Virus record (IMG/VR): IMGVR_UViG_3300017917_002374
Span: 248,001-312,000 of that record
Strand: one strand, 5' to 3'
DNA from: a virus
DNA: 64,000 nucleotides
Shown here: piece after piece, positions 4,201-35,896 of the stretch
Layout of the letters: every line of letters starts with the position of its first letter
How positions within the stretch are numbered: the first letter of the stretch is position 1
The notes under the pieces: generated by a model
Told to the model about the DNA's origin: nothing
Seen by the model: the letters and a program-made list of their open reading frames with translations, nothing else
The model's database searches: none
Program-made: the position numbers and the translations under genes

Positions 4201-7200
4201 GGTGCTGGCTTTGTTGATTACATGATGAGAGCTATTGATGGTCGTATGATTATGGCGCATCGTAGCAAAGGTAACAACATCAATGACGAAGCCTACATGC
4301 GTACTGGTAATTTGCCAGCACGTTATCAAGCAGTCAATAAAGGCGCTCGTAGCTGGACCAGCAAGGCAGTCACACCAGATGCAACAGAAATTCAGTTGTA
4401 TGATGTAAGCGAATTCCCAACAGCAAATGCCACATATCCTGTGACTGTTCAAATTGACAACGAACTGATTAGTTATACAGGAGTATGGCAAGCGAACGGC
4501 AACATCACAGGTATCACTCGTGGTGCTACTCTAAACAGTTATATTCTAGGCGAACAACGCAGCCTATGGAAAGGCAGCAATGCTGGAGTGGCATGGAGTC
4601 CTCGTGGTATGCCAAGCAATGCACCTTGGGCAGCACAAGCATTTAACCCACGTACAGGTACCTGGGTAGCGGTTGCAGGATACAGCACAGGCAGTCAAGC
4701 CACTGCATACAGCAAGGACGGACATAACTGGATCGCTGGCGGCAACCTGCCAGTAAGCAGCAACTGGTTCAATGTTGCCTACGGTCAGTTGAATGGTGTA
4801 GACACATTTGTGGCTATTTCCAATACCAACAGCACAGTGAGTGCATATTCACAAGATGACGGCTTGACCTGGACTTCGTTAACACTGCCTACCACTGCAC
4901 AGTGGTCAGGTCTAGCACATGGATTTGATCAAAACAATGTACCAGTGTTTGTGGCTATTTCAGGATTTTCCGGGGTCACAGGAACCACAAGTCAAGCAAC
5001 TGCATGGCTAAAGTCAATTGGTGCAGGATGGCAATCAGGTGGTAGCTTATCAACTGCTTTACAGTGGACATCAGTGGCATTTGGTAAAACCACAGCTAAT
5101 TTGAACGTTACTACCAACAATGTGAGTGCTAGAACCAACTACTTCTGTGCCGTGGGAAGTACAGCTACATTTTCTACTGGTACCACCACATTTAACTATA
5201 GTACAGATGGCGGTGTAAGTTGGAATCCAGGTATATTGGCTTCAACTGCCGCCTGGACAGATATTGCTTTTGGTAACAATACCTGGATTGCAATCGCAGG
5301 TGGTCTGGGCGGCACAGCAGGCAGTGTGGCAAACTATGTTCACGGAAATCCTGCGTTAGCGACCTGGGCATCAACCACATTGCCGGCCACACAAGGATGG
5401 CGTAGTATCATCTGGGGCGAAATTTATGGTATGAACCAATCTGGTGTACCAAACGTTGGTCAGGCAGGTCAGTGGATGGTGGTAAGCGACACAGCTTCAA
5501 CCACAACATTTGCTTATATGACCAACCCGCATTTGCTTGGCCCAGGTGTTGCACCAACATGGTTGAGCGGCACTCTAAACACAGCAGGCAGTTATACCAG
5601 CATCTGCTGGGGTAAAGGCATGTTCACAGCACTAGCAAGTGCTCAGTGGCAAGTGCCAATCAGCACATTTGGTAATACATTTGCAACCAGCGAATTCACC
5701 AGTGCAGGTAACTGGAGAGGACTGGCACAAGGCGATGGTAACGTGGTAGCAGTTGGCTTTGGTCAAACTGTGGCACAGGCTAGCTACAATGGTGGTCGCA
5801 CCTGGCAAGCAGCAGGTACCATGGCCAGTAGCCAAAACTGGATAGCAGTTGCATACGCACCAGACATGGGCTTTGGACAAAGAGGTCGTTTTGTTGCAGT
5901 AAGCAACACCAGCGGTACTACTGTTCAGTGGCAAGATGCTGTACAGTTAGGGGCTAGCTGGAACACAACAACCACAGGTGTTGCAAGTTTATCATATTCA
6001 GATATTTGTGCAGTAAACAGAACCTTTATTGCAGTGGCTACAGGATCGCAAACCAGTATATTCTCTGCTAACGGTGCACTAGGCTTCAGTCAGATAAATC
6101 TGCCAAGCAGCAGTAACTGGAGCGGAGTTGCAGGCGGGTTGTTCCCAATCTTCCAAGGCAACACAGGCAACGTGTGGATGGTAGCAGCAGTAAGCAGCAC
6201 CAGCGGAACAATTGCTGCTTACAGTAATGTACGTTCTGCAATTCAAGGCCTAAGCACTTTACCAGACAGTGGTAACCAAGGACAGAATGTTGTAAGTTTG
6301 TGGGGTAGTGCAACACTACCAGCCACAGGCACATGGACCTGTATTGGATACGGGTACAACAGTTACAACAACACCGGAAGATTTATCGCTCTGGCTGCTA
6401 GCAGTACCAGCTCAGCAATCAGTGTTGATGGTGGACGCACTTGGACAGCAGGCGGCGCACTGCCAAGCAGCAGTTTGTGGCAGCGTGTGGCGTATGGTTC
6501 TAACGGTATTTGGGTAGCGATTGCCAACGATAGAAGCACAGTGGCAGCTTACAGTTTGAATGAGGGTGCAAGCTGGATAGCCAGCACATTACCAACTGCA
6601 TGTAACTGGACCAATGTGGTTTATCAAGATCGTCATCATCACTTTGTGGCAATTTCAGGTGATGCTACCAACGCTAGTGCAAACGTTTCTTTAAGTCGTC
6701 CAACAGCAGGTGTTGGTATGGAACACACAGCCAACACAGGTGTTAAGGTAGTAAGTGTAACAGCCAGCCCAGACTTGAATCACTGGGGTAGTGCAGTTAT
6801 CATGGACGGCGGCTTCACAGTTGACCGTACATACACATTCACCTACAACGTAACCAACTATCAAGTGGCTGCGGTAGCTGGTGTACCACAAACCATGTTT
6901 ATGATGAGACTGGCACCAACAATCAGTAACTCCTTAACAGGTGAACTGGGTGGTAAAGAACTGATCAACCGTGCGCAGGTTCTGTTACAGAGCATGTACA
7001 TCAACGTTGGTGCATCCGCTGCACGTTTCTTGGTACAGGGCGTTCTGAACCCAACCAACGTGATCAGTGCTAACTGGAGACCGTTGAATGCAACTTCAAC
7101 GTTCTTACAACCTAGCTTTACACAGTTTGTGGCTAACGCATTAGCAGCATTACCAACTGCTGGTGTACGTCAAATAATCTTTGGTGCAAACACCACTGCA

Positions 7201-16079: not shown

Positions 16080-17213
16080 ATGGCCACATTAAAGCCAGGA
16101 CTGAATTCTAAACAACACTTGATCACTGACAGCTTGGGCACACCAGGTCCAATAGCCTACGATGAAACACAGTACGACAGCGTGGCCAAAAAACGCAAAG
16201 AAATAGAAGACTACGTGCGTTTTCGTTTGGGCGATGGCATGGTTGATGTTGAACTGGATCCAGATCATTATAGAGTAGCTATTGATAGAGCTCTGCTGCG
16301 CTATCGTCAACGTGCTGGAAATGGCGAAGAAGAAAGTTATGCGTTTCTAGAACTTTTACCAGAAACACAAGAATACATTCTGCCAGAAGAAGTCATGACT
16401 GTACGACAGATATTCCGTAGAGGCATTGGTAGTGTAACAGGAACCACAGCTAGCCAATTTGAACCGTTTGCGTCCGGGTACTTAAACACATACATGTTGG
16501 TGGCTGGACGTGTGGGTGGATTGCTCAGTTACGAACTGTTTAGCCAATACCAAGAACTGGCCATGCGCATGTTTGGCGGACACATGAATTTTACTTGGAA
16601 TCCAATGAGCAAAAAGCTCACACTGATTCGCAAGATTCCCGAAACAGGTCATGTGTACAAGCGAATAAGTACTCTTACTGCCAGTGGTACCACAGTTGGA
16701 AGCACAATCACTGTTACATTCTCTGATCCTTGGGAAGAAATTGTGGTTGGTGGAACTTTGGTTATTGCCAACTGTCCGGTTACCGGATACAACAATGCCT
16801 ATGAAGTTCTTACTGTGGACAATGACAGCAAGGTGTTTACTGTGGAGGCACTGAGCAATCTTGGTTCCACTGCGGTAACAGGCAGCAATCGTGATCGCAC
16901 CAGAGCCTACAGTCCACTTACTGATGATCCTGCCGAAACAGTTTTGTTGCATATCTATAATAAGAAACCAGACAGCATGCTGTTGAATGACAGTAGAATT
17001 TTTCCATGGCTACAAGACTACGCACTGGCAGTTGCTAAAGACATGTTGGGTCAGGCTCGCGAAAAGTTTGCTACCATAGCAGGCCCACAAGGTGGTACTC
17101 AGCTGAACGGCGGCGCATTAAAAACCGAGGCTAAAGCAGAAATGGAAGCTCTTGAAGAAGAACTCAAGCGTTTTTACGATGGCAGTATGCCTTACACTTG
17201 GGTAATTGGATAA
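16080..17213 (+). CDS. 13: Neck protein, gp13-like (377 aa)
   Basis: The N-terminal ~195 residues (KKRKEIEDYVRFRLGDGMVDVELDPDHY, ALLRYRQRAGNG.EESY, LPEEVMTVRQIFRRGIG, QYQELAMRMFGGHMNFTWNP) and the C-terminus (DYALAVAKDMLGQAREKFATIAGPQGGTQLNG) match gp13 of T4-like phages, the neck protein that with gp14 seals the filled head and accepts the tail. Between them, at about residues 195-275, is an inserted beta module (SGTTVGSTITVTF...GYNNAYEVLTV...FTVEAL) that also occurs in the 2063-aa adhesin. T4 gp13 is 309 aa, so the extra length is about this module. No ribosome site is obvious; the leader would be very short. Confidence 0.85.
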   Translation: MATLKPGLNSKQHLITDSLGTPGPIAYDETQYDSVAKKRKEIEDYVRFRLGDGMVDVELDPDHYRVAIDRALLRYRQRAGNGEEESYAFLELLPETQEYILPEEVMTVRQIFRRGIGSVTGTTASQFEPFASGYLNTYMLVAGRVGGLLSYELFSQYQELAMRMFGGHMNFTWNPMSKKLTLIRKIPETGHVYKRISTLTASGTTVGSTITVTFSDPWEEIVVGGTLVIANCPVTGYNNAYEVLTVDNDSKVFTVEALSNLGSTAVTGSNRDRTRAYSPLTDDPAETVLLHIYNKKPDSMLLNDSRIFPWLQDYALAVAKDMLGQAREKFATIAGPQGGTQLNGGALKTEAKAEMEALEEELKRFYDGSMPYTWVIG

Positions 17214-17593
17214 TGAAGATAAGAGAAATTATTACTGAAGTACGAGCTGGTGACATACCTGACAATTTTAAACAGTCAAGTGCTGGCTTGCATACATTTA
17301 GTGATGCAGAAAGAGCCAATACAGACTACACTCACTACAGATTGGGATTGGCTTTGGCATGTGCAGATGGTAAAGGGCAGCTGATTGACATGGATCCAAA
17401 AACCTTTTATGGTAAGAAACACACTGCACATCCTTATACCAAAGAAGAAGAAGACATGCTCAAACAAAGCTACAAACTGGTTGGAGCAAACTATAAAGAC
17501 CTTAACAAAGGTAATTTGAATAGTATGGAAATAAGCGATACTAATAAAGTAAGCCCAACAGCCAAACCTAAGAAAAACAAATACGGTGTTTGA
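17213..17593 (+). CDS. Conserved small protein with capsid-targeting-like N-terminus (126 aa)
   Basis: The ATG at 17213 overlaps the gp13 stop (TAATG) and gives MKIREIITEVRAGD, which is better than a start five codons upstream inside gp13. The first residues resemble the T4 capsid-targeting sequence (MKTYQEFIAEA type), where gp21 protease cuts after an (I/L)xE; here IITE-V. The rest (FSDAERANTDYTHYRLGLALA, DPKTFYGKKHTAHPYTKEEEDMLKQSYKLVGANYKDLN) belongs to a family I recall from marine T4-like phages with no assigned function. Translationally coupled to gp13, so a head or neck role is likely. An internal or packaged protein is a plausible alternative. Confidence 0.6.
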   Translation: MKIREIITEVRAGDIPDNFKQSSAGLHTFSDAERANTDYTHYRLGLALACADGKGQLIDMDPKTFYGKKHTAHPYTKEEEDMLKQSYKLVGANYKDLNKGNLNSMEISDTNKVSPTAKPKKNKYGV

Positions 17594-18332: not shown

Positions 18333-18615
18333 GACACACTGTTCTTAGATTTACTCTATCTACATTTTTTAAATTACCGTCCACATGATAAACATGCAAC
18401 TGTTGATCAGGTAATTTAGCCACAAAGCCGCAATGATCGCATGCGGCTTTTTTTCTATATCCGGCACGATACCAAGCAGGTCGTTTTGCTGGTACTTTTT
18501 TACCCTTTCTAATACAAGTGTCACACCGACTTCGGAAATGTGTGATTCCTTCTGAAATATAGTTGATTGCAACAGGACGATCGTTGCAAGCAGGGCATAA
18601 ACTTCTAATAGACAT
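18274..18615 (-). CDS. Small four-CxxC zinc protein, HNH-like (113 aa)
   Basis: Four CxxC pairs (CPAC, CDTC, CDHC, CLNC) and the segment YHVDGNLKNVDRVNLRTVCLNC suggest two zinc sites, with an HNH-like H-x-DGN...N core between the last pairs. I recall this family as common in T4-like marine phages, unannotated. Nucleic-acid binding or a small HNH-type nickase are both possible; no decisive catalytic histidine set can be assigned. It is a single minus-strand gene between plus-strand late genes and has an exact TATAAATA just 4 nt before its ATG, so its mRNA may be leaderless. Confidence 0.65.
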   Translation of the reverse strand: MSIRSLCPACNDRPVAINYISEGITHFRSRCDTCIRKGKKVPAKRPAWYRAGYRKKAACDHCGFVAKLPDQQLHVYHVDGNLKNVDRVNLRTVCLNCQKVLYLERLPWRAAED

Positions 18616-18619
18616 ACGG

Positions 18620-18627
18620 TATTTATA
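18620..18627 (-). promoter_or_regulatory. Late promoter TATAAATA (minus)
   Basis: Exact octamer on the minus strand with only 4 nt (CCGT) between it and the ATG of the zinc protein. Confidence 0.7.
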
Positions 18628-18677
18628 TACTAAACCTTTGCAAAGGGCAGTCTAGCAGCCCAAAAATGTCAGTTCCA

Positions 18678-18685
18678 AATAAATA
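18678..18685 (+). promoter_or_regulatory. 18: Late promoter AATAAATA for gp18
   Basis: AATAAATA lies 33 nt before the sheath ATG (18719), with an AAAGGA ribosome site (about 18706-18711) between. Confidence 0.6.
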
Positions 18686-18718
18686 TCTATAACATGATTT
18701 TTGTCAAAGGAAAATAAC

Positions 18719-21700
18719 ATGGCAACTTTAGTTTCTCCAGGTCTTAGTGTAACAGTAACCGATGAAAGCCAATATGTACCAGGCGGTCCAGGAACCGTTC
18801 CGTTGGTAATTTTAGCAACTGCACAAGACAAAACTTCACCAAGTGGTGGCACCGCTACTGGCACCACAGCAGCCAGAGCAAATACTCTACAAGCATTTGG
18901 CAGTCAGCGCGAGCTGATCACAGCCATGGGATATCCCGTATTTAAAACTGCGGCTGGCAGTCCTGTACATGGCGACGAACAAAACGAATATGGATTGCAA
19001 GCAGCTTACAGTGCAATGGGCCTTGGTAACAGATGTTTTGTACTAAGAGCTGATATTGACCTCGATCAACTTACACCTACTGGAGTAAGACCAAAAGGCA
19101 ACGTTGATGATGGTTTCTACTGGTTTGATCTTACCACATCTGACTTTGGTATATTCCAGTGGAATGCATCAACACAGACTTTTACAAAACAAACAGTAAC
19201 CGTTCTAACTTCAACCGCAGACGTAAATTCTCCTGGCGGCGCCGGAGAACCATTTACTCCAAAAGACAGTGTGGGAGAAATTGGCAGTTATGCAGTAATC
19301 GCAGTAGACGACGACAATCCTCTATTTTATAAAAATGCAGACAATGCCTGGGTAGCTGTTGGATCAAAAGATTGGCAGAAGGCCTGGCCTACTGTGCAAA
19401 GTTCATATGCAACTTATGCCGGAAATGAAGTAGCAGCAGGTACTCAAGTTACTATTAATACTGTTACTGTAACAATCACAGCAGCAGGTGCGACAGCAAC
19501 AGGAACAGAAGTAGTAACTGCAATTAATGCGGCGTTCGCTGCCAACTACGGCGACGGTATCCGTGCTGAAATTGATACCAACGGAAGACTGATCATTCGC
19601 GCTACATCAGACGCAGCAAGCGATGGTAGCACAGCTGACGGTAAAGTGGTTATTGTTGACGATGCTGGTGCTGCTGACTTAGGATTAGATGGCGGTATTG
19701 AAGCGTTTGCTCCAATTCTTGATTTTGGAAAATACACAGAGGTACCAACCTTTGCAGCGTCTGAAGCCACTCCAGCACCAACTGGTAGTATTTGGGTAAA
19801 AACTTCTGTAGTAGGCAGCGGTGCTAACTGGGTAGTAAAAAGATTCAACGCATCAACTGGTGCATTTGCTACCATGGCAGCTCCGATCTACGAAGACAAA
19901 GCATCGGCCATCTATGGACTAGATCCATTAGGCGGTGGATTTAATCTAGCGGTAGGCACACTGTATGTTGACTATTCAACACTAACTGATTTTCCTGGTA
20001 CATTTAAAATTTGGCGTCGTTACAAGAGTGGCGTAACCAAGGTTACTGGATCAGTACCTGCTAATGCAAATCCATTCACCATTGGGCATACTTTTAAACT
20101 GGCTGTGACACAGCCTGAGCAAAGTACCATTGATGAATACACATTTACTATTGCTGAAACCAGTGTAGACGGTTTTGTAAAACTAATACTTGGTAAAGCC
20201 ATTCCAAATGTGTTTGCATCAAAAGAAAGTTCAGGTGCAATCAGTATCACGCACAAAGCAGGCGGAGATATCTATCTAGTAGATACTACCGCAGGGGTTG
20301 GTAATCCATTGACCAACGCTGGTTTCACCAGCAGCACCAGTGGTATTCTTGTAGAAACAGTTGGAACATATTCAGGATCTTTACTGGCCACAAACTGGTC
20401 TGTACTAGACTACACTTACAGCACTGAAGAGCCTTATGTGGCCCCTGCTGATGGTACACTATGGTACTATGGTAGTGCTGTAGAAGCAGATGTGTTAATT
20501 TGCAGTACCACTGGCTGGAAGGGATATCGCACAGTGTCAAGTGACGCTCGCGGTTATAATCTAACTCTTACAGATCCAAATGGTCCAATTTTTTCTGCTT
20601 CAAGACCAACACTACAAAGCGACGAGACAGCTCTTGTGGCAGGCGACTTGTGGGTTGACACCAGCGATTTAGAAAACTATCCTGTGATCTACAGATACAA
20701 CGGCAGCAAGTGGGTAGCCATAGATAACACAGATACCATTACTCAAAACGGTATTCTATTCGCAGACGCACGTTGGGACGCAGATGTTGATGGCAGCGGT
20801 GACAGTATTGGTGGTATCGTTGATCCAATCAGTGGCGACCTGCCAGAGATAGCAACCATGCTGTTGAGCAACTACACTGACTTAGATTGCCCAGACTATC
20901 GTTTGTATCCACGTGGTACCATTCTATGGAACACACGTCGCAACGGATTCAACGTCAAACAATATGTAAGCCAAGCATTTACAGAAGACGCTTATCCAGA
21001 TGCAGATGCCAACAGCGGAAACAATCTGGTTGGAGAAATTCCTGACATCACAGCAACTTGGGTAACTGCTAGTGGCAACCAAGATGACGGAAGTCCTTAC
21101 ATGGGACACAAAGCTCAACGTCGTATGGTAGTCAAAGCACTACGTGCGGCAGTTGACAGCAACACACAGATACGTGAAGAACAGTTCACTTTCAATCTGA
21201 TTGCTTGCCCAGGATATCCAGAGCTGTTGTCAAACATGACAGCATTAAACAATGATCGTGCAAACACTGCATTTATCATTGGCGACACTCCATTGGATCT
21301 GGTTCCAGACACAATTGAGTTAACCAACTGGAGCAATAATGTTGCTACCACTGCTGACATCTATACAGGCCTGTTCTATCCGGCAGGGTTAACAAATGAC
21401 CTAGATGGCAACGAAGTTGTGGTACCTGCAAGTCACATGGCATTAAGAGCTTTGATTCGTAACGATCAAATTGCTTACCAGTGGTTTGCCCCAGCAGGCG
21501 CACGTCGTGGATTGATTGACAATGCCACAGCAGTAGGATATCTAGACTATACCACAGGATTGTTCACTAAGATTGGTGTACGTCAAAGTCTGCGTGACAC
21601 GCTGTACACTTTAAGAGTGAATCCTGTTGCAAACTTACCTGGTTTAGGACTGGCTATTTTTGGACAAAAGACTCGTAGTCCAATTGCACAAAGCACAGAC

Positions 21701-25608: not shown

Positions 25609-26247
25609 ATGAAAACCTTTAAAACATACTTGCAAGAAAGTGTCAAAACCTACAGTTTCCGTGTGCGTTTGGCTGATTGTGATTGCACAGCTGAACTCAT
25701 GGACAAGATAGAACAAGCACTGTCTGCATTCAAACTGGTAGATATTACCAAACCCAAGAGCTTGCCAATAGCTCGTACCAATGAATTTTATAAACTAGGT
25801 CCAGTGGGGCGTAACAGTTTTGACATAACCACAGCATACCCTGCAAATCCTCCTCAGGTACAGCAGGCCATTCACAACTGTTGCGGAGTACCAGTTAGTC
25901 ATATCTATGTGACTTACGCGGGCGCAGACGATCAGGATGCAGCAGTAGAAGCAGCACCTGAGCACACAGATAGTGGCAAAGCTCTATTAGTGGATCCTGA
26001 ACTAAAACAAGACGACAACAACGCACAAGATCACGTGGGGCTGAAAAAAATTGATAGCCTGTTAAAAGAGCTTGAGAAGAACCGCGGCGTTCAATCTCAG
26101 TACAAAGGAATCAACGACGACATTCTCGCAAAGAGTGAGGCTAAAGAAAGCGAATCTAAAACAACCAATAGCCTGCCACAAAACAATCGCAGTCCGGTCA
26201 CAGACACTGGTAGCAAAGCAACTACTAAAAAAGTAAAGGCACTATAA
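25609..26247 (+). CDS. Candidate internal head protein with capsid-targeting N-terminus (212 aa)
   Basis: The first 12 residues, MKTFKTYLQESV, closely follow the T4 capsid-targeting sequence (MKTYQEFIAEA of Alt and internal proteins), with LQE-S fitting the gp21 cleavage rule (I/L)xE before a small residue. Residues 14-105 (YSFRVRLADCDCTAELMDKIEQALSAF... VQQAIHNCCGVPVSHIYVTY) form an alpha/beta domain I recall from marine T4-like phages as unnamed. The C-terminal ~90 residues are charged and look disordered, ending KATTKKVKAL. Packaging into the prohead is inferred from the N-terminus; function after that is unknown. First gene of a late unit that continues into the 1014-aa protein. Confidence 0.65.
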   Translation: MKTFKTYLQESVKTYSFRVRLADCDCTAELMDKIEQALSAFKLVDITKPKSLPIARTNEFYKLGPVGRNSFDITTAYPANPPQVQQAIHNCCGVPVSHIYVTYAGADDQDAAVEAAPEHTDSGKALLVDPELKQDDNNAQDHVGLKKIDSLLKELEKNRGVQSQYKGINDDILAKSEAKESESKTTNSLPQNNRSPVTDTGSKATTKKVKAL

Positions 26248-26248
26248 C

Positions 26249-29200
26249 ATGAGCAAGCACAACGACATTTATAACATCTTGGGTAAATTGAATTCACTTA
26301 AACCTCAAGAAGAAACCAAACCCAGTATTCTAAAAGAGTTTGCTGAACCAAAGCCTGCTGATGTTGTGCAGAATCTAAATGCCAAATACCAAGAGCATAA
26401 ACAGTTGAATGAATATTTTCATTTTGACATGCCTAAAGGCAAGGATCGCGGCCCTCGCGACACAGGCACAGACGAACTAGAGCGTCGTAGCAAGCTAGGC
26501 AAAGATCCATTGGTCAAGCATGGCAAAGAATACAAAGAAAAAGATCGTTACGGTAATGGATACAAAATTGCTGGACCAAAAGGTAACTTACCCGAAGGCG
26601 ATATGGAAGAAGGACCAGCAGATCTATTGGCCGCGATTGAACAAGAAATCAATAACCCAGGTGGCAGTGTTGATAACTTGAGAGATGTCTTGAATGCTAC
26701 TTTTGGTAGCGATAGATCACCTGAATTTAAAAAAGCTCGTGCAGTCATTGGCAAGTATCTTGACTTGGTAGACAACGCTGCAATGGGTAGTGAACAAGAT
26801 GGTATTGCTCCAATGAGAGGTGGCAATATTGCTCGTCATATCCAACAATATGATCTAACTGATTATCTACAAAATGCTGCTGCTATGTTGGATAAAACAG
26901 TTAAAGGTCCAATGGACGAGAGCGGTTTGCAAGCATACCTAGGTAAAAAGAAGTACGGCGAACAAGGTATGAAGGCTCTGCAAAAGGCCGGTCGTGAAGG
27001 CGCCAGCAAAGAAAAGATGGCACAGATTCGTGCCAAGCATGACAAGCTGGACGAGATCAGTCAAGAACTTGCTGGCAATTACATGACAGCAGCAGAAAAA
27101 GACATCAAGTCAAGAAAAGAAAAAGACACATGGGATCCAAAGATCAGCAAGCGTAAAGAAGGTAAGTTCAATGCAGTACTACGCAAGACAGGTACAGTGC
27201 CTACCACAGACAATCCAACACATGGAAAGTTTATTACCAGCAAGATGGATGAAGCTGAAATGGATGAAGACATGCTGAGTCCTAAGCAGAAGAAGTTTGC
27301 AGCACTAGCTGAACCAAAAGATAAAATTACCTACGCAGACAAGATTGCAGGTGCAAAGAAAAAAGACGAAGGTAATGAATTCAGCGGCGAATTAGTAAAA
27401 GCTCGTGCGCAAGGCAAAGACAGCTTTAGTGTGGATGGTAAAGAGTATCCAGTAAAAGAAGGTTTTGAAGATCAACATGATGTTACCAACAAAGGCGAGT
27501 ACGATCAAGAAGGCGACATGGCCAAAGATGATCTCAGCACCATTGAAGATGCTGCTCGTGAGCTAGACAGTATTCTTAGTGCAGACGACAATCTGCCAGA
27601 ATGGGTACAAAGCAAGATCAACAAGGCCATGGACTATCTTGACACAGCAAGAGATTACATGAAAGCCAACACAGACGATGACAATCCTGAAATCAAAGAA
27701 GGCGAATACAAAGACTCTGTTAACAAGAGCAAGGTGCCTGCGTATCAACGCAAGGCCAAAGGTGGAGATTGGAAAGTGAGCACAAAAGATCTAGAGGACG
27801 AGGCTAGCAAGAGCCCAACTGGTCGCGCAGGATTAGAGAAACTGAAACAGCGCATGCGTGATGATGGTGTAATGGAAGGCTTCCCTACTGTAGCAGATGC
27901 CAAGGCTCGTGCAGAAAAAGAAAAAGGCACAGGCAAGTTTGATAAACAAACAACCAGTACAGGAACACGTTATACTCGCAAGCCAGAAACTTATAGCGAT
28001 GATGGCGAAGAGTCAGGTACCAGCGACGCACCTAAAAAGCGCGGCCGACCTAAGAAGCACACAGGCCCAGAGCGTGTGACCAGCAAAGCATGGAAGCACA
28101 AGGGCGGACGCAAGACCAATGAGTCTATTAAGTTGGATACATTTGTTGAAGACACAATTGGCGAACTAGATGCTCTATTATTGAGTGAAAAAGCAGTAAG
28201 CAAACAGCAGCAGAAATTCATGGGCATGGTACATGCCATGCAAAAAGGCGAGAAAGTCAAAGGCGCTAGCAAAGAATTAAAAGCAGCGGCTAAAGGCATG
28301 AGCAAGAAAGATGCCAAGGACTTTGCCAAAACCAAGCACAAAGGTTTACCGTCAAAAGTGACAGAAGGAATTAACTTTGTTGAAATGATGCGTGAGACAG
28401 ATCAGACAGTAGAAGAAATGTTAAACGAACTGCATGCTGAGCTTGATGAATACAAACGTTCAGGACAGATGGGCGACAAATTACGTGACGCTCTTGAACT
28501 GCATCGTCATAGCAAGAACAAGCTCATGGGCGAAACAAAAGAAAAAGAGAGAGACGATTTTTTCTACAATCCTGATGTGCCAGACGACCAGCAGTTGCCT
28601 GCATTACCAGACGAAGTAAAAGTTGATGTAGAGCTAGATGAACTGGCCAAGCTAGCAGGACTAGGTGAAGTCAGTCGCGGTGAATATATCAAACAACAGG
28701 ATGCACAAGCTGAACGTGCAGGCAAAGACAGTTTTAATGCATTTGGTCAAAACTTTGATACAGATCAAGTGCAAGAAGCTTCATGCAACATGACAGCGGA
28801 AGGTCAGTTCTGCCCAGAACACGGTCTAGCAGAATGTGGCAGCATGATGTATGAAAGCAAACAGTCACTAGACGAGTGCGGTGACATGGGGCCTATGGAG
28901 AAGCCAGAAAGCGGCATGAGCGTGAACACCAGTTTTGATACTAAGACCGGTCGTAAAACCATGAGCGTCACAGCCGACGGCGAAGCAGCAGAACAACTGG
29001 CACAGATGTTAAAAATGGCAGGACTGGGACATGATCATTCACACGACCACGGGCCTGAACGTAAGATTGTTATGGTACCAGAAGAAGAAGTAACTGAAGA
29101 GTTTGCAAATGAGCCAAATGAACAGTATGCAGACACACAAACAATAGTGGATGCTGGTCAAGATCTCAATCGTAAGAAAAAACAGTATGCTGACAAGCCC

Positions 29201-29293
29201 AAAGCAGGCGACAATCCAATGGCTACAGAAAATGTTCAACTAGAGGATCGTTTGGCAGCACTATATGATAGTATTAAGGTAAAATCAGAATGA
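26249..29293 (+). CDS. Large charged, DNA-binding-like internal protein (1014 aa)
   Basis: The protein is very rich in Lys, Glu and Asp and is probably largely extended. Visible parts: N-terminus HNDIYNILGKLNSLKP; a helical YLDLVDNAAMG region near 170; ELDSILSADDNLPEWVQSKINKAMDYLDTARDYM near 435-470; an AT-hook (KKRGRPKK) near 595; a DUF3008-like block near 650-705 (KQQQKFMGMVHAMQKG, KGMSKKDAKDFAKTKHKGLP); and ELDELAKLAGLGEVS near 795. C-terminal part has Cys/His-containing CNMTAEGQFCPEHGLAECG and HDHSHDHG. Motif family names are recalled, not searched. It lies between two proteins with capsid-targeting-like starts, so a DNA-condensing or scaffold/core role in the head is inferred. ATGA overlap with the next gene. 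Confidence 0.6.
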   Translation: MSKHNDIYNILGKLNSLKPQEETKPSILKEFAEPKPADVVQNLNAKYQEHKQLNEYFHFDMPKGKDRGPRDTGTDELERRSKLGKDPLVKHGKEYKEKDRYGNGYKIAGPKGNLPEGDMEEGPADLLAAIEQEINNPGGSVDNLRDVLNATFGSDRSPEFKKARAVIGKYLDLVDNAAMGSEQDGIAPMRGGNIARHIQQYDLTDYLQNAAAMLDKTVKGPMDESGLQAYLGKKKYGEQGMKALQKAGREGASKEKMAQIRAKHDKLDEISQELAGNYMTAAEKDIKSRKEKDTWDPKISKRKEGKFNAVLRKTGTVPTTDNPTHGKFITSKMDEAEMDEDMLSPKQKKFAALAEPKDKITYADKIAGAKKKDEGNEFSGELVKARAQGKDSFSVDGKEYPVKEGFEDQHDVTNKGEYDQEGDMAKDDLSTIEDAARELDSILSADDNLPEWVQSKINKAMDYLDTARDYMKANTDDDNPEIKEGEYKDSVNKSKVPAYQRKAKGGDWKVSTKDLEDEASKSPTGRAGLEKLKQRMRDDGVMEGFPTVADAKARAEKEKGTGKFDKQTTSTGTRYTRKPETYSDDGEESGTSDAPKKRGRPKKHTGPERVTSKAWKHKGGRKTNESIKLDTFVEDTIGELDALLLSEKAVSKQQQKFMGMVHAMQKGEKVKGASKELKAAAKGMSKKDAKDFAKTKHKGLPSKVTEGINFVEMMRETDQTVEEMLNELHAELDEYKRSGQMGDKLRDALELHRHSKNKLMGETKEKERDDFFYNPDVPDDQQLPALPDEVKVDVELDELAKLAGLGEVSRGEYIKQQDAQAERAGKDSFNAFGQNFDTDQVQEASCNMTAEGQFCPEHGLAECGSMMYESKQSLDECGDMGPMEKPESGMSVNTSFDTKTGRKTMSVTADGEAAEQLAQMLKMAGLGHDHSHDHGPERKIVMVPEEEVTEEFANEPNEQYADTQTIVDAGQDLNRKKKQYADKPKAGDNPMATENVQLEDRLAALYDSIKVKSE

Positions 29294-29910
29294 AAAGTCT
29301 AAAAGAATATATCGCCGAAAGCGAGTTCACTTTAGAAAATCCTGTACCAGGAGATGTGTTTGGTCTTGAACTTAGTACCGACGTGCTTATTGAAAGTGTA
29401 GTAGGAGAACTATTAGAGGATGGATCTCCTGTGGTTGAGTTAGATGCTCGTGCCATTGAGATTATGGAAAGCATGGGGTGGGTATTTGAAGATGTTGCAC
29501 CTGTGCCAACTGACAGCATAAGTCCAATACACGGTAATGCATTTGCTCCTTATCATCGTGAACATGACCCACGCGAATGGTTCCGTAAAGATGTACATGA
29601 AGAAGAGCAAGACGAAGAAGCAGAAGATGAAACTGTGACCGAAGCAGAATACAGAGGTCGCAAGGTGCCGTTAGGCAAACCAATGGCAGGCGATGTAAAA
29701 AAGAAAAAAGTTTATGTACGCAAGCCCAACGGCAGCATTGTAAAAGTAAATTTTGGCCATGGCGGAACCAGTGCCAAAAAAGCAGGTCAAAAGACCATGC
29801 GTATTAAAAAATCAAACCCTGCACGTCGCAAGAGTTTTAGAGCTAGACACAACTGTGACAATCCTGGACCACGCTGGAAAGCAAGGTACTGGAGTTGCAG
29901 AGCTTGGTAA
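29290..29910 (+). CDS. Candidate internal head protein with basic conserved C-terminus (206 aa)
   Basis: The N-terminus MKSLKEYIAESEF again resembles the T4 capsid-targeting sequence, with IAE-S as a likely gp21 site. A central acidic stretch (EEEQDEEAEDETVTEAEYRGRK) follows. The basic C-terminus, about residues 135-206, reads KKVYVRKPNGSIVKVNFG, MRIKKSNPARRKSFRARHNC, DNPGPRWKARYWSCRAW. I recall this tail as a widely shared module in marine phage proteins of unknown role; Arg/Lys-rich with two conserved Cys, it may bind DNA. Coupled to the 1014-aa gene by ATGA overlap, supporting a shared head function. Confidence 0.6.
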   Translation: MKSLKEYIAESEFTLENPVPGDVFGLELSTDVLIESVVGELLEDGSPVVELDARAIEIMESMGWVFEDVAPVPTDSISPIHGNAFAPYHREHDPREWFRKDVHEEEQDEEAEDETVTEAEYRGRKVPLGKPMAGDVKKKKVYVRKPNGSIVKVNFGHGGTSAKKAGQKTMRIKKSNPARRKSFRARHNCDNPGPRWKARYWSCRAW

Positions 29911-29928: not shown

Positions 29929-30762
29929 ATGAAAAAATGGTTTTCAATTCTGCTACTATCTCTAGTGGCAACTCCAGCAGCAGCATGGGATCAATGGGCA
30001 CCGCAGCCTATTAATGCTTGTAATGTTCAAGCACCATACGGTTTTCCTAAAGCATCGCGAGGCGATCTTATGGGCAACAGTCAGGCAATATGCCGTCATG
30101 CCTATGTTACATTACATGATAATGTGGCAAAGATTCCTGTGTGGGTCAGCTACACATTGCAACCACAAAATGCATTAGGCTGTGTCCCACGTTCAAACGG
30201 ATTCATGCCAGACAACAGTTTGCCAAAAGGTAAACGTGCAGAATTGTCTGATTATGCCAAGAGTGGATATGACATTGGACATGTGGCTCCTAATGGCGAC
30301 ATGAGTTTTGATAATCGTGCAGAGTTAGAAAGTTTTTTGTTAACCAACATGTATCCACAACTGCCTGGGTTGAATCGTGGCATCTGGAAGTTGTTGGAAA
30401 CTGCAACAAGAGGCTGGGCGGTTCAAAGAGGACATGCGATAGTAGTATACGCTGGGGCTATATATGGCACTGGTGACAAAACCATTGGTGCGAATCAAGT
30501 GGTAGTACCACGTGCGTTTTATAAGATTGTAACAGACACCACTACAGGTGAAGTTATGGCATTCTTGTTCAAGCACGAAGGCGGGCAAGGCAATGACCTG
30601 ACCAAGGTACGTGCAAGTTTAGACACAGTTGAAAAACTCAGCGGTGTGGCTTTTAGTTTTCCTGCTAATGCTAGAGAAGTGCCATTGAATCAAATATGGC
30701 CAGTAGACTATGGAGCACTAACAAATGCAAAAAGAGCCAAATGCAAGGGAACCGGAGAATAA
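29929..30762 (+). CDS. DNA/RNA non-specific endonuclease with signal peptide (277 aa)
   Basis: The N-terminus is a clear signal peptide: KK, hydrophobic WFSILLLSLVATPA, then AAA-W as a likely signal peptidase I site near residue 19. The nuclease core has YDIGHVAPNGDMS (H118 is the expected catalytic base; the family motif is DRGH, here DIGH), followed by LLTNMYPQLPGLNRGIWKLLE with the Mg-binding Asn149 of the NUC1/Serratia nuclease family. It would act in the periplasm or outside the cell, degrading DNA and RNA. Good AAAGG ribosome site. Follows the candidate head proteins on the same strand. Confidence 0.85.
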   Translation: MKKWFSILLLSLVATPAAAWDQWAPQPINACNVQAPYGFPKASRGDLMGNSQAICRHAYVTLHDNVAKIPVWVSYTLQPQNALGCVPRSNGFMPDNSLPKGKRAELSDYAKSGYDIGHVAPNGDMSFDNRAELESFLLTNMYPQLPGLNRGIWKLLETATRGWAVQRGHAIVVYAGAIYGTGDKTIGANQVVVPRAFYKIVTDTTTGEVMAFLFKHEGGQGNDLTKVRASLDTVEKLSGVAFSFPANAREVPLNQIWPVDYGALTNAKRAKCKGTGE

Positions 30763-30791: not shown

Positions 30792-31001
30792 ATGGACAAC
30801 ATTGAAGAACTACAAGTATTGGCCGGCATAAAAAACCGGCCTTTGTTCACAGAGTACAAAGGACACTCTGGTAGCAACATCAGTGTGACTGGAAATGAAA
30901 AAGGTCAATTGATGAAAAAATTAAACATCAAACCAGGAACTGAAGAATGGTTCAAACTGTGGTTTAGCAAACCATATCTCACAGGCGAAAAGCCAGTTTA
31001 A
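30792..31001 (+). CDS. Small protein of unknown function (69 aa)
   Basis: Begins NIEELQVLAGIKN and ends FKLWFSKPYLTGEKPV. The start EELQVLAGIK is similar in style to the LAGL helical ends seen in the 1014-aa and 593-aa proteins (LDELAKLAGLG, LRAIARLAGLQ), which hints at a shared interaction motif. No ribosome site of note. The 3' end overlaps the convergent 321-aa gene by 4 nt. Reality of the gene is supported by its tight fit but not by known homology. Confidence 0.5.
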   Translation: MDNIEELQVLAGIKNRPLFTEYKGHSGSNISVTGNEKGQLMKKLNIKPGTEEWFKLWFSKPYLTGEKPV

Positions 31002-31963
31002 TCTAAAAATTTAACTTTACGTTTTTCAAACTTGGTGTTGGTTTCGGCGCGAGCATTTTTGAATCCCACGTCCGGACGATCAAGCATGTATCTTAACACT
31101 AGATAAGGTTCGTAATCGCCGGATGGAGTATCGCCATTGGCAAAAACCTGTTGTGCTGTTAACTGATACCCTCTTCCGGATTTTGCAATTTTAGGATAGC
31201 CTGCAAGTACCACATCAACATTGCTAATGCCCGGTTGCCCGCTAAAAAAGTTTTTTCCAAACACAACAAGATTTTTAATGTCATTGCTTGGATGCAACCC
31301 AAATGCCTGTCCACTTTGAAATACACCGCCGGTTTCGGCTTTAATTTTAGATAGCCATTGTTGAATTTCAGGCAAATTTATAAGATGATTCCAACCGCCA
31401 TACTTGGCAAAATTGTCAGCTTTTAGACTTACCCAGGCAACTGCATGACCATTTTCGTCATACACTGTCATGTCGCTTTTTGGAGCACGGCCATTAATTA
31501 ATTCTGTGGTTTTACCAAATGTAGCCGCTTGTACAACACGTTTGCCAATCTTAAGTGGGATACTGGATTTACCGAGTTTTTGTTTGATAGCTTCAAGCTC
31601 GCCAGACAGCCCGTCAATTTGCAACTGTTCTATAGCCACACGTTTGCCTGACTCTTCGCCGCCAAATTCTGCAGTCTTGATGATACTACCTAGTGGAATT
31701 TCTCGTGGAGGTTCTTCTGCTGTTTTCAGCTTTAGATTTGGTCTAGGAGAAGTTTGGGTCCACGCAGAAAAACGATCCGCTTCGGCAGGATCAATAACTA
31801 CATCTTCAACACCCTGTGTGGTTTTGACTTTAAAAGGACTGCCTGATTGTATTTTTTGAATAACAATAGGCACCCGAGCCTTTGGTGTACCTTCGTACTT
31901 GAAAAGTCCGGGTGCTAATGGAGCTTCGTTAACTGGCTCTTGGGTAACTTCTGTTATACGCAT
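30998..31963 (-). CDS. PD-(D/E)XK-like protein with capsid-targeting-like start (321 aa)
   Basis: N-terminus MRITEVTQEPVNEAP has the short basic/hydrophobic, E-rich form of the other capsid-targeting-like starts in this window. The middle has PKSDMTVYDENGHAVAWVSLKADNFAKYGGWNHL, where D164 and S179-x-K181 resemble a restriction-endonuclease-fold core in which the usual Glu is replaced by Ser. C-terminal part includes DVVLAGYPKI and YEPYLVLRYM. No family is recognised with confidence; a nuclease or nuclease-derived protein packaged in the head is a guess. It lies downstream of the HNH gene on the minus strand, separated by 8 nt. Confidence 0.5.
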   Translation of the reverse strand: MRITEVTQEPVNEAPLAPGLFKYEGTPKARVPIVIQKIQSGSPFKVKTTQGVEDVVIDPAEADRFSAWTQTSPRPNLKLKTAEEPPREIPLGSIIKTAEFGGEESGKRVAIEQLQIDGLSGELEAIKQKLGKSSIPLKIGKRVVQAATFGKTTELINGRAPKSDMTVYDENGHAVAWVSLKADNFAKYGGWNHLINLPEIQQWLSKIKAETGGVFQSGQAFGLHPSNDIKNLVVFGKNFFSGQPGISNVDVVLAGYPKIAKSGRGYQLTAQQVFANGDTPSGDYEPYLVLRYMLDRPDVGFKNARAETNTKFEKRKVKFLD

Positions 31964-34114: not shown

Positions 34115-35896
34115 ATGTCACGCGAAATTGAAAAAATTGCCGAAGATTTATTTGAAAAAGTTAGATCTAGATTTGAAAATGTTAACTTAGGAGACGAAGC
34201 AGCCAAGGCTACCAACGATCCTGAGAAAGCAAGATTTTTCAACTTTGACTATGTGACAAACGAAGAAAATCATGGCAATGTTACAATCAGCATAATTGAC
34301 GAAAATAATCTAAAGATTTATTTCAGTAAAAATATCAGCGACAATCTAGAAGGGCAAGAGTTAGACAACTGGTACAGTTTTCTAAAAGAGTTACGCTATT
34401 TTGCCAAACGTAATCTACTCACATTTGACACTAGAGACATCAGTCGTAGCAATCTAAACATAAAGGATCTTAAACAAGTGAGCAAAGCAGACAGTACCTT
34501 GACCACTCAAGATGTGGCAATATCAGAAAGCAGACTTTATGGCACACACATGATCAGCTACGAAAATGTTGGACCGGCCCGTATCATGATCAAACACACA
34601 GAAAGTGTGAATCCTGAACAGCGTGGTAGTAGAGCAAGACACATCAATGCAATCTATGTTGAAAATGCACAGGGCGAACGTTTTAAAATGCAACACAACA
34701 AGTTGAGCGGAGCAAGGGCCATGGCACGTCATGTGGCAGAAGGCGGTATTCCTTACGATGATGTTGGTCAGCATATCAACAGCATGATACAAGAAATGGC
34801 AGATCTTGGTCGTTTTGTGCGTGTGATGAAGCATCGTACCTTTGAAGACAACACAGCAGTCAAAATGGTAGAAGCAGCAGCCAACTATTATCAAGGCATG
34901 AATAGACAATTAAACTATCTCAAAGGTTCAAGAGCCTATAGAAATTTTGTAGAGTCATTTGAACCAAACAAACAACAACTAGACGAAGTGGATGTAAATG
35001 AATTAAAAGAACGTTTTGTTAAAAAAGTTTTTGATGATCGTATGATGGCAGCACTGCCATTGGTGAACAAGGCCTATCAGTTACAAGAACAAGCCAAACA
35101 CAAACAATTAGAAAGTGTTAAAGACATTGTTGAACACCGTGCTGATTTGCAGTTGATTGAAAATGAAGGCATGGACGAATATTTCAAGGCTCTGAGTTTC
35201 GCTCGCCCTGCAGATCTGGTAGTTCGCATTCTTGAAGACATTGCCAAACGTGGCGCAGCTATTCCAGAAGTAGCAGAATTTGCCAAACACTGGGCAGCAA
35301 ACTTCAACATGGTAAACGAAGACAGCGATAAAGAATTAAAAGAAAATCAAGCTCTGGCAGTAAAATTGGCTACGCACTACATTAGAGACCTACGTAACCT
35401 ACATGAGGGGTTACGAGTGTCTCAAACAGACTATAATCTAGTGGATTTTGACAGCGGCGAAATACTAGAAGAAGGCACTTGGGCACTACCAGAATCACCA
35501 GAAGAAGTTCAGGCTTTACAGGCATTGATGGCGCAGCCATTAGAAGTGGGCGTGGATGCTGAAAATGCTACCAGCGCACTCTACGAACTGATTGGCGACG
35601 ATGAACTGTTTGATAGACTGAATGATCTAGCAGATGCAGAAGGACCACGTGCAGATGCCAGAGACACTATCAAATACTTTTTACAACAGGAAATGCCTGG
35701 CCTAGCAGCTAAATTGAATTTTGGTGATGCAGAAATGGATCAAGCTACAAATGTCGCATCGCCTGCGCAACCCGCACCGCCTGCACAACCAACAGCAGCT
35801 AACACACCACCTGGACAGAATTCTGGCGGAGTGGTAAGCGAAGAACTACGAGCAATCGCTCGTTTGGCTGGTTTACAGTCGTTTATGGTGAAATAA
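34115..35896 (+). CDS. Conserved phage protein downstream of terminase (593 aa)
   Basis: I recall this family from marine T4-like phages without a function. It has an N-terminal alpha/beta part (EIEKIAEDLFEKVRSRF), then SESRLYGTHMISYENVGPARIMIKHTESVN and RARHINAIYVENAQGERFKMQHNKLSGARAMARHV near 140-210, a long helical middle, and a C-terminal LYELIGDDELFDRLNDLADAEGPRADARDTIKYFL block (about 505-540). A Pro/Ala linker leads to a last helix, ELRAIARLAGLQSF, like the ends of other candidate head proteins here. Location after gp17 suggests a virion or packaging role; nothing in it shows enzymatic activity. Confidence 0.6.
   Translation: MSREIEKIAEDLFEKVRSRFENVNLGDEAAKATNDPEKARFFNFDYVTNEENHGNVTISIIDENNLKIYFSKNISDNLEGQELDNWYSFLKELRYFAKRNLLTFDTRDISRSNLNIKDLKQVSKADSTLTTQDVAISESRLYGTHMISYENVGPARIMIKHTESVNPEQRGSRARHINAIYVENAQGERFKMQHNKLSGARAMARHVAEGGIPYDDVGQHINSMIQEMADLGRFVRVMKHRTFEDNTAVKMVEAAANYYQGMNRQLNYLKGSRAYRNFVESFEPNKQQLDEVDVNELKERFVKKVFDDRMMAALPLVNKAYQLQEQAKHKQLESVKDIVEHRADLQLIENEGMDEYFKALSFARPADLVVRILEDIAKRGAAIPEVAEFAKHWAANFNMVNEDSDKELKENQALAVKLATHYIRDLRNLHEGLRVSQTDYNLVDFDSGEILEEGTWALPESPEEVQALQALMAQPLEVGVDAENATSALYELIGDDELFDRLNDLADAEGPRADARDTIKYFLQQEMPGLAAKLNFGDAEMDQATNVASPAQPAPPAQPTAANTPPGQNSGGVVSEELRAIARLAGLQSFMVK

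Follow-up and report, generated by a model that had tools for sequence, protein, structure and literature searches.

A probable set of internal head proteins in a T4-related jumbo phage, with two candidate signals for recruitment to the prohead core

The 64,000-nt window corresponds to bases 248001–312000 of a 354,959-bp virus record and encodes three adjacent proteins at positions 25609–29910, all on the plus strand. The first open reading frame (ORF, 25609–26247) encodes a 212-aa protein that starts MKTFKTYLQES, and the third (29290–29910) a 206-aa protein that starts MKSLKEYIAES. The ORF between them (26249–29293) encodes a modular, net acidic protein of 1014 aa, which is a candidate core protein without a capsid-targeting sequence (CTS). 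The first two genes are separated by 1 bp and the last two overlap by 4 bp; the three ORFs exist with the N-termini that the initial annotation had described. The cluster lies between the tail tube and terminase genes, outside of the head module, and the order in relatives is sheath, tube, tube, three small genes, 212, 1014, 206, ..., TerL, 593, 335, RecA. It is a fixed part of the lineage rather than a chance neighborhood.

By its sequence, the source is a T4-related jumbo phage of 355 kb. Similarity of the scaffold and the terminase groups it with PA5oct/MIJ3, Phosso, Atu_ph07, 121Q, CBB, and RaK2, with identities of about 33–42% for gp22 and 43–54% for TerL. A near-identity DNA search among phages gave zero matches. 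The complete T4-type head module (portal/gp67-like/gp68-like/gp21/gp22/gp23) is located ~9–15 kb upstream of the window. The record contains both an S77 (gp21) prohead protease (PF03420, E 3.8e-28, 96 bits, above the cut-off) and gp23 (PF07068, E 1.9e-101). At the corresponding propeptide end, this gp23 reads YLAE|SATAGA, and the gp23 proteins of relatives keep LxE|[S/N/T/A] at the cleavage site. From position and motif, we infer that gp23 is cut in this phage.

Packaging of T4 IPIII requires no more than its ten N-terminal residues (PMC9026906). Positions 4 and 7 of the T4 CTS are responsible for targeting and positions 8 and 10 (L/I-x-E) for cleavage by gp21, while Asp at position 10 permits targeting without processing (PMC9026906). 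The N-termini of the 212-aa and 206-aa proteins agree with this rule at positions 4, 7, 8, and 10. Both sequences, MKTFKTYLQE (25609–25638, plus strand) and MKSLKEYIAE (29290–29319, plus strand), have F or L at position 4, Y at 7, L or I at 8, and E at 10, and the cut is predicted before S11. E followed by S parallels the phage’s own gp23 site YLAE|S, and T4 IPII and IPIII start MKTYQEFIAE|A. The 1014-aa protein begins with MSKHNDIYNILGKL, which is not a CTS, and a reading of the cluster as three CTS proteins was rejected for this reason.

The resemblance to the T4 CTS that was proposed initially is borne out by the exact spacing and by the rarity of the pattern. When both strands of the 354,959 bp are searched with a degenerate nucleotide pattern of the CTS, two matches are obtained in total (reversed control: one match), and they are the start codons of the 212-aa and 206-aa genes. 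A narrower pattern that admits only a purine at codon 5 misses the 212-aa gene. A slightly wider one matches five times in T4, including ipII and ipIII, and not at all in lambda. Among 91 loci, the CTS peptide pattern is found at 25 N-termini versus one of 8,334 internal Met, in a set that is enriched in the 212-aa and 206-aa families because both served as queries. The CTS and LAG statistics (for LAG, see below) come partly from loci retrieved with these families, a bias of which the genome-wide pattern searches are free. Glu occupies position 10 in 25/29 N-terminal matches to the first eight CTS positions. Open-access papers yielded nothing relevant on a CTS in RaK2-like phages.

A looser class of starts, MKIxEIIxE, is enriched at N-termini in the same loci (38 N-terminal versus 2 internal in the 91 loci). 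It resembles the start of T4 gp24 (MAKINELLRE|S) and that of the gp67-like protein of PA5oct (MKINDIITE|G). In the window, proteins at 17213–17593 and 30998–31963 (minus strand) start MKIREIITE|V and MRITEVTQE|P. The 54-aa hypothetical protein gp61.1 of T4 (gene 61.1, 18966–19130 of the T4 record) starts MKTFKEFIKE, which matches the CTS closely.

For the 212-aa protein, a short N-terminal helix (residues 4–10) is predicted ahead of a ferredoxin-like or ribosomal-S6-like β-α-β-β-α-β domain (residues about 15–103) and a low-confidence tail. AlphaFold2 assigns pLDDT values of 81–89 to residues 11–100, and the structure matches are S6-like. Pfam gave zero matches up to E 1 for this protein and for the 206-aa protein. 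The 212-aa family evolves fast, and homologs of the protein can be followed down to 21–27% identity. In 17 metagenomic homologs M1, K2, Y7, and E10 are invariant and F4 and L8 are conserved at 90% or more; columns 1–11 of the family alignment average 74% conservation versus 42–49% elsewhere. For the Atu_ph07 homolog AUZ94910 (around 18394–19062 of the locus), the annotated start is too far downstream; MKTLQDYLTE|S is encoded ahead of it, and the upstream start restores MKTLQDYLTESKKCYTY. PA5oct gp282 and Phosso 408 keep K2, F4, and Y7 and carry A and S, respectively, at position 10, so that the targeting residues outlast the cleavage residue. Judged from these residues, gp21 cleavage may not be universal across the homologs. 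Besides the CTS, the 212-aa protein has one other [LI]xE site, and most of the protein would therefore survive gp21.

The 206-aa protein (phrog_7595, 1e-9) consists of the CTS, a small β-domain at about residues 21–61, an acidic linker, and a C-terminal module of residues 114–206. This C-module is very basic (pI 11.1), harbors every invariant alignment column of the family, and probably contacts packaged DNA. Most full-length family members start MKxLxxYIxE or with a shorter MKIxDIIxE. A fold assignment was dropped, as the predicted structure is of low confidence and a PDB search gave no useful match. The C-module (window 29629–29907) is characterized by the signature YxGRxVxLxKPM...RRKSFRARHNC...ARYWSCRAW and is extremely common, with at least 590 viral-contig stretches. 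It stands alone in small Pelagibacter phages and is joined to varied N-termini elsewhere. The module was not found in the counterpart sets of PA5oct, Phosso, and Atu_ph07. Downstream, the 206-aa gene is adjoined by a gene for a non-specific DNA/RNA endonuclease (29929–30762; PF01223, E 8.4e-41); the endonuclease apparently has a signal peptide and is found in the closest relatives only.

The 1014-aa protein is a mosaic of blocks known from elsewhere, including a DUF3008-like block (28193–28360, plus strand, residues 649–704) and an LPxWVQxKI block that is joined to the 206-aa module in other phages. The initial annotation had placed it in the head on the grounds of high charge, an AT-hook, and DUF3008 similarity, which are weak grounds. 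The protein is charge-rich (KR 16%, DE 19%), but its net charge is acidic, at −28. The AT-hook KKRGRPKK is real, but only 5/21 long homologs have one, all of them close relatives, and it was rejected as a defining trait of the family. The DUF3008-like block is matched by phrog_30268 (5e-16), whereas the Pfam score for DUF3008 (PF11450; E 0.0019) is 18.8 bits and thus below the gathering cut-off of 24. Among the 21 long relatives, DUF3008 is present in 9 and LPxWVQ in 11. Better grounds for the internal-head reading of the 1014-aa protein are the LAG motif and the virion proteins detected by mass spectrometry (MS) in related phages.

The LAG motif is an amphipathic helix motif, [LIVM]xx[LIVM]xx[LM][AS]G[LIVM], that is carried by 20/21 long relatives of the 1014-aa protein. 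Two copies are present here, LDELAKLAGL (28634–28663, plus strand, residues 796–805) and the variant LAQMLKMAGL (28997–29026, plus strand, residues 917–926). The gp22 scaffold of this phage ends in the same motif (IDIKRLAGLN, followed by the stop codon). The scaffold C-terminus is LAGL in nearly all close relatives examined, LAGI in PA5oct, Atu_ph07, and Phosso, and LSGI in 121Q, and more distant contigs also end their scaffold with LAG, for example as WKKLAGLLS in a contig whose gp23 is very different. The form [LIVM]xx[LIVM]xxLAG[LIVM] is common to the gp22 C-terminus, the 1014-aa protein, the C-terminal end of a 593-aa virion structural protein (34115–35896, plus strand; ELRAIARLAGLQSFMVK), and the N-terminal start of a 69-aa protein (30792–31001, plus strand; MDNIEELQVLAGI). 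The 593-aa protein matches phrog_13484 (head and packaging, 1.8e-16), and the Atu_ph07 counterpart of the 69-aa protein reads MDIERLKILAGL. These three proteins share [hydrophobic]xx[hydrophobic]xxLAG[LI] with the C-terminus of the gp22-type scaffolds of RaK2/121Q/PA5oct-like phages; apart from the motif, they are unrelated to gp22. In T4 and Kyanoviridae, gp22 ends in a different motif without LAG, which makes the LAG motif lineage-specific. Open-access papers yielded nothing relevant on an LAGL motif in scaffolds.

In 1,796 ORFs the motif occurs 68 times versus one to three times for each of five permutations of the LAG core, an enrichment of more than 20-fold. Genome-wide, the strict in-frame L-A-G form is present in four genes only, those of the scaffold and the 1014-aa, 69-aa, and 593-aa proteins. 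The bare LAG DNA pattern exceeds its control in this phage, in PA5oct (9 versus 1), and in CBB (10 versus 2), and slightly in Phosso (20 versus 14); Atu_ph07 has 11 matches against 13 in the control. The S-SCSM1 genome shows no excess (2 matches versus 3 in the control). PA5oct has seven LAG/LSG places, and the six outside of the scaffold are all in MS-flagged proteins, compared with 2/9 for permuted cores, a modest test because MS-flagged genes make up 39% of the genome length. The LSG variant is also found in a 2,243-residue tail-protein ORF. The PA5oct scaffold carries no MS flag, as would be the case for a scaffold that undergoes degradation.

PA5oct and Atu_ph07 are cultured relatives with virion proteomes. 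Around terL, the same order is observed for PA5oct gp282/gp281/gp278 (Wroclawvirus), Phosso 408–412, and Atu_ph07 AUZ94907–AUZ94910, in which gp282, Phosso 408, and AUZ94910 are the homologs of the 212-aa protein; of these, gp282 and Phosso 408 do not carry E10. The PA5oct record flags gp282, gp281, and gp278 as ESI-MS/MS. The last is the homolog of the 593-aa protein, and gp281 (residues 1–12: MFNINDILRLAG) is the positional counterpart of the 1014-aa protein and contains two LAG motifs. Whole-virion MS cannot tell head from tail or carry-over, and RIIB, UvsX, and enzymes of nucleotide metabolism are on the PA5oct list as well. The record of cyanophage S-SCSM1 labels both ORF93, a stand-alone DUF3008 protein, and ORF92, the charged protein next to it, as virion proteins, with labels that come from MS of a CsCl-purified proteome (PMC9602691). 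As a set, the S-SCSM1 virion proteins ORF89–93 include the DUF3008 module of the 1014-aa protein and are otherwise distant. The NMNAT next to ORF92 and ORF93 (ORF91, 5218–6447 of the locus) is a virion protein as well and starts MKSFLQFLKE|A, a CTS-like start that would explain its packaging. S-SCSM1 has two real N-terminal CTS matches, this virion NMNAT and ORF30, the latter not a virion protein. Cyanophage NMNATs of this kind have been found repeatedly in virions, and further ORFs that resemble NMNATs or nucleotidases in the 91 loci have MKIxEL-type starts.

With the T4 internal proteins (IPs), the 212-aa and 206-aa proteins share a 10-residue N-terminal peptide that begins with MK and has an aromatic or hydrophobic side chain at positions 4 and 7, L/I at 8, and E at 10; a small residue follows the cut, and a gp21-type protease is encoded. 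Unlike the basic T4 IPs, the two proteins are near-neutral (pI 6.4 and 6.3, respectively) and are encoded in the late tail-terminase block; they differ further by the ferredoxin-like domain of the former and the basic tail module of the latter. Neither is a small basic protein; basic character is confined to the C-module of the 206-aa protein. Neither Pfam nor a tblastn search of phages, in which T4 gave no match, pointed to homology with IPI, IPII, or IPIII.

Most probably, the genes at 25609–29910 specify internal proteins of the head (prohead core) that a T4-related jumbo phage assembles together as a set. For the 212-aa and 206-aa proteins, the proposal of the initial annotation is well supported by the CTS, the gp21 protease, the gp23 context, the distant conservation, and the PA5oct MS. 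We conclude that two signals would serve to recruit the cluster, a CTS of the T4 type and the scaffold-type LAG motif. The CTS helix (residues 4–10) would bring the 212-aa and 206-aa proteins into the prohead core, and the 1014-aa protein would enter it through LAG helices that copy the C-terminal docking peptide of the scaffold, with the two copies letting it bridge two sites. All three proteins would in this way be loaded into the head before the DNA. gp21 would then cut after E10, the mature 212-aa and 206-aa proteins would remain in the head with the DNA, and the basic C-module would hold the packaged DNA. Cleavage and head location are inferred from these features, and the example of T4 makes it conceivable that the proteins are released into the host along with the DNA.

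The same genes could be read as neck- or tail-associated virion proteins, in which the N-terminal helix docks another virion partner and is neither a capsid-targeting nor a cleavage signal. The position of the genes after the tail tubes and head-closure genes would fit, the PA5oct and Phosso homologs do without E10, and MS does not separate head from tail. The spacing of the T4 CTS is exact, however, E10 is kept in 17/17 metagenomic homologs and in Atu_ph07, the P1′ Ser matches gp23, and exactly two such N-termini exist genome-wide, so that this reading is quite improbable. Slightly less remote, but still unlikely, is a role as prohead-core assembly factors whose fate, as for T4 gp67/gp68, is to be largely broken down by gp21 and expelled instead of being retained as cargo. 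Such a fate would suit the 1014-aa protein, which is acidic and poorly conserved and has 15 [LI]xE sites alongside scaffold-type motifs. It is harder to reconcile with the 212-aa protein, which has just one further [LI]xE site, and with the homologs and positional counterparts that stay in mature virions by MS (PA5oct gp282 and gp281; S-SCSM1 ORF92 and ORF93).

A reading that concerns the second signal only takes LAG for a generic helix cap, a dimerization helix, or a docking site for gp21, with carriers that merely share a compartment. This is a serious contender that falls somewhat short of an even chance: the motif is short, its recruitment role is read from sequence, the PA5oct LSG variant occurs in the large tail-protein ORF, and the genome-wide excess is weak in Atu_ph07 and Phosso. 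Against it stand the enrichment over permuted cores, the restriction of the strict form here to the scaffold and three other genes, and the conservation of the motif at the extreme C-terminus of the scaffold. That RaK2/PA5oct-like jumbo phages have a second capsid-targeting signal, the C-terminal LAG helix of the scaffold, beside the cleavable CTS is close to an even proposition. The helix would in that case have been copied to unrelated internal proteins, at the N-terminus, in the interior, or at the C-terminus.

The internal-head reading broadens the capsid-targeting code of T4 to include a widespread lineage of jumbo phages in which most virion proteins are without an assigned role, and it gives sequence rules that predict which proteins ride in the head. 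If LAG is a docking signal, a single short peptide would account for the arrival of scaffold and cargo in the same shell, and it would provide a second tag with which to load proteins into phage heads.
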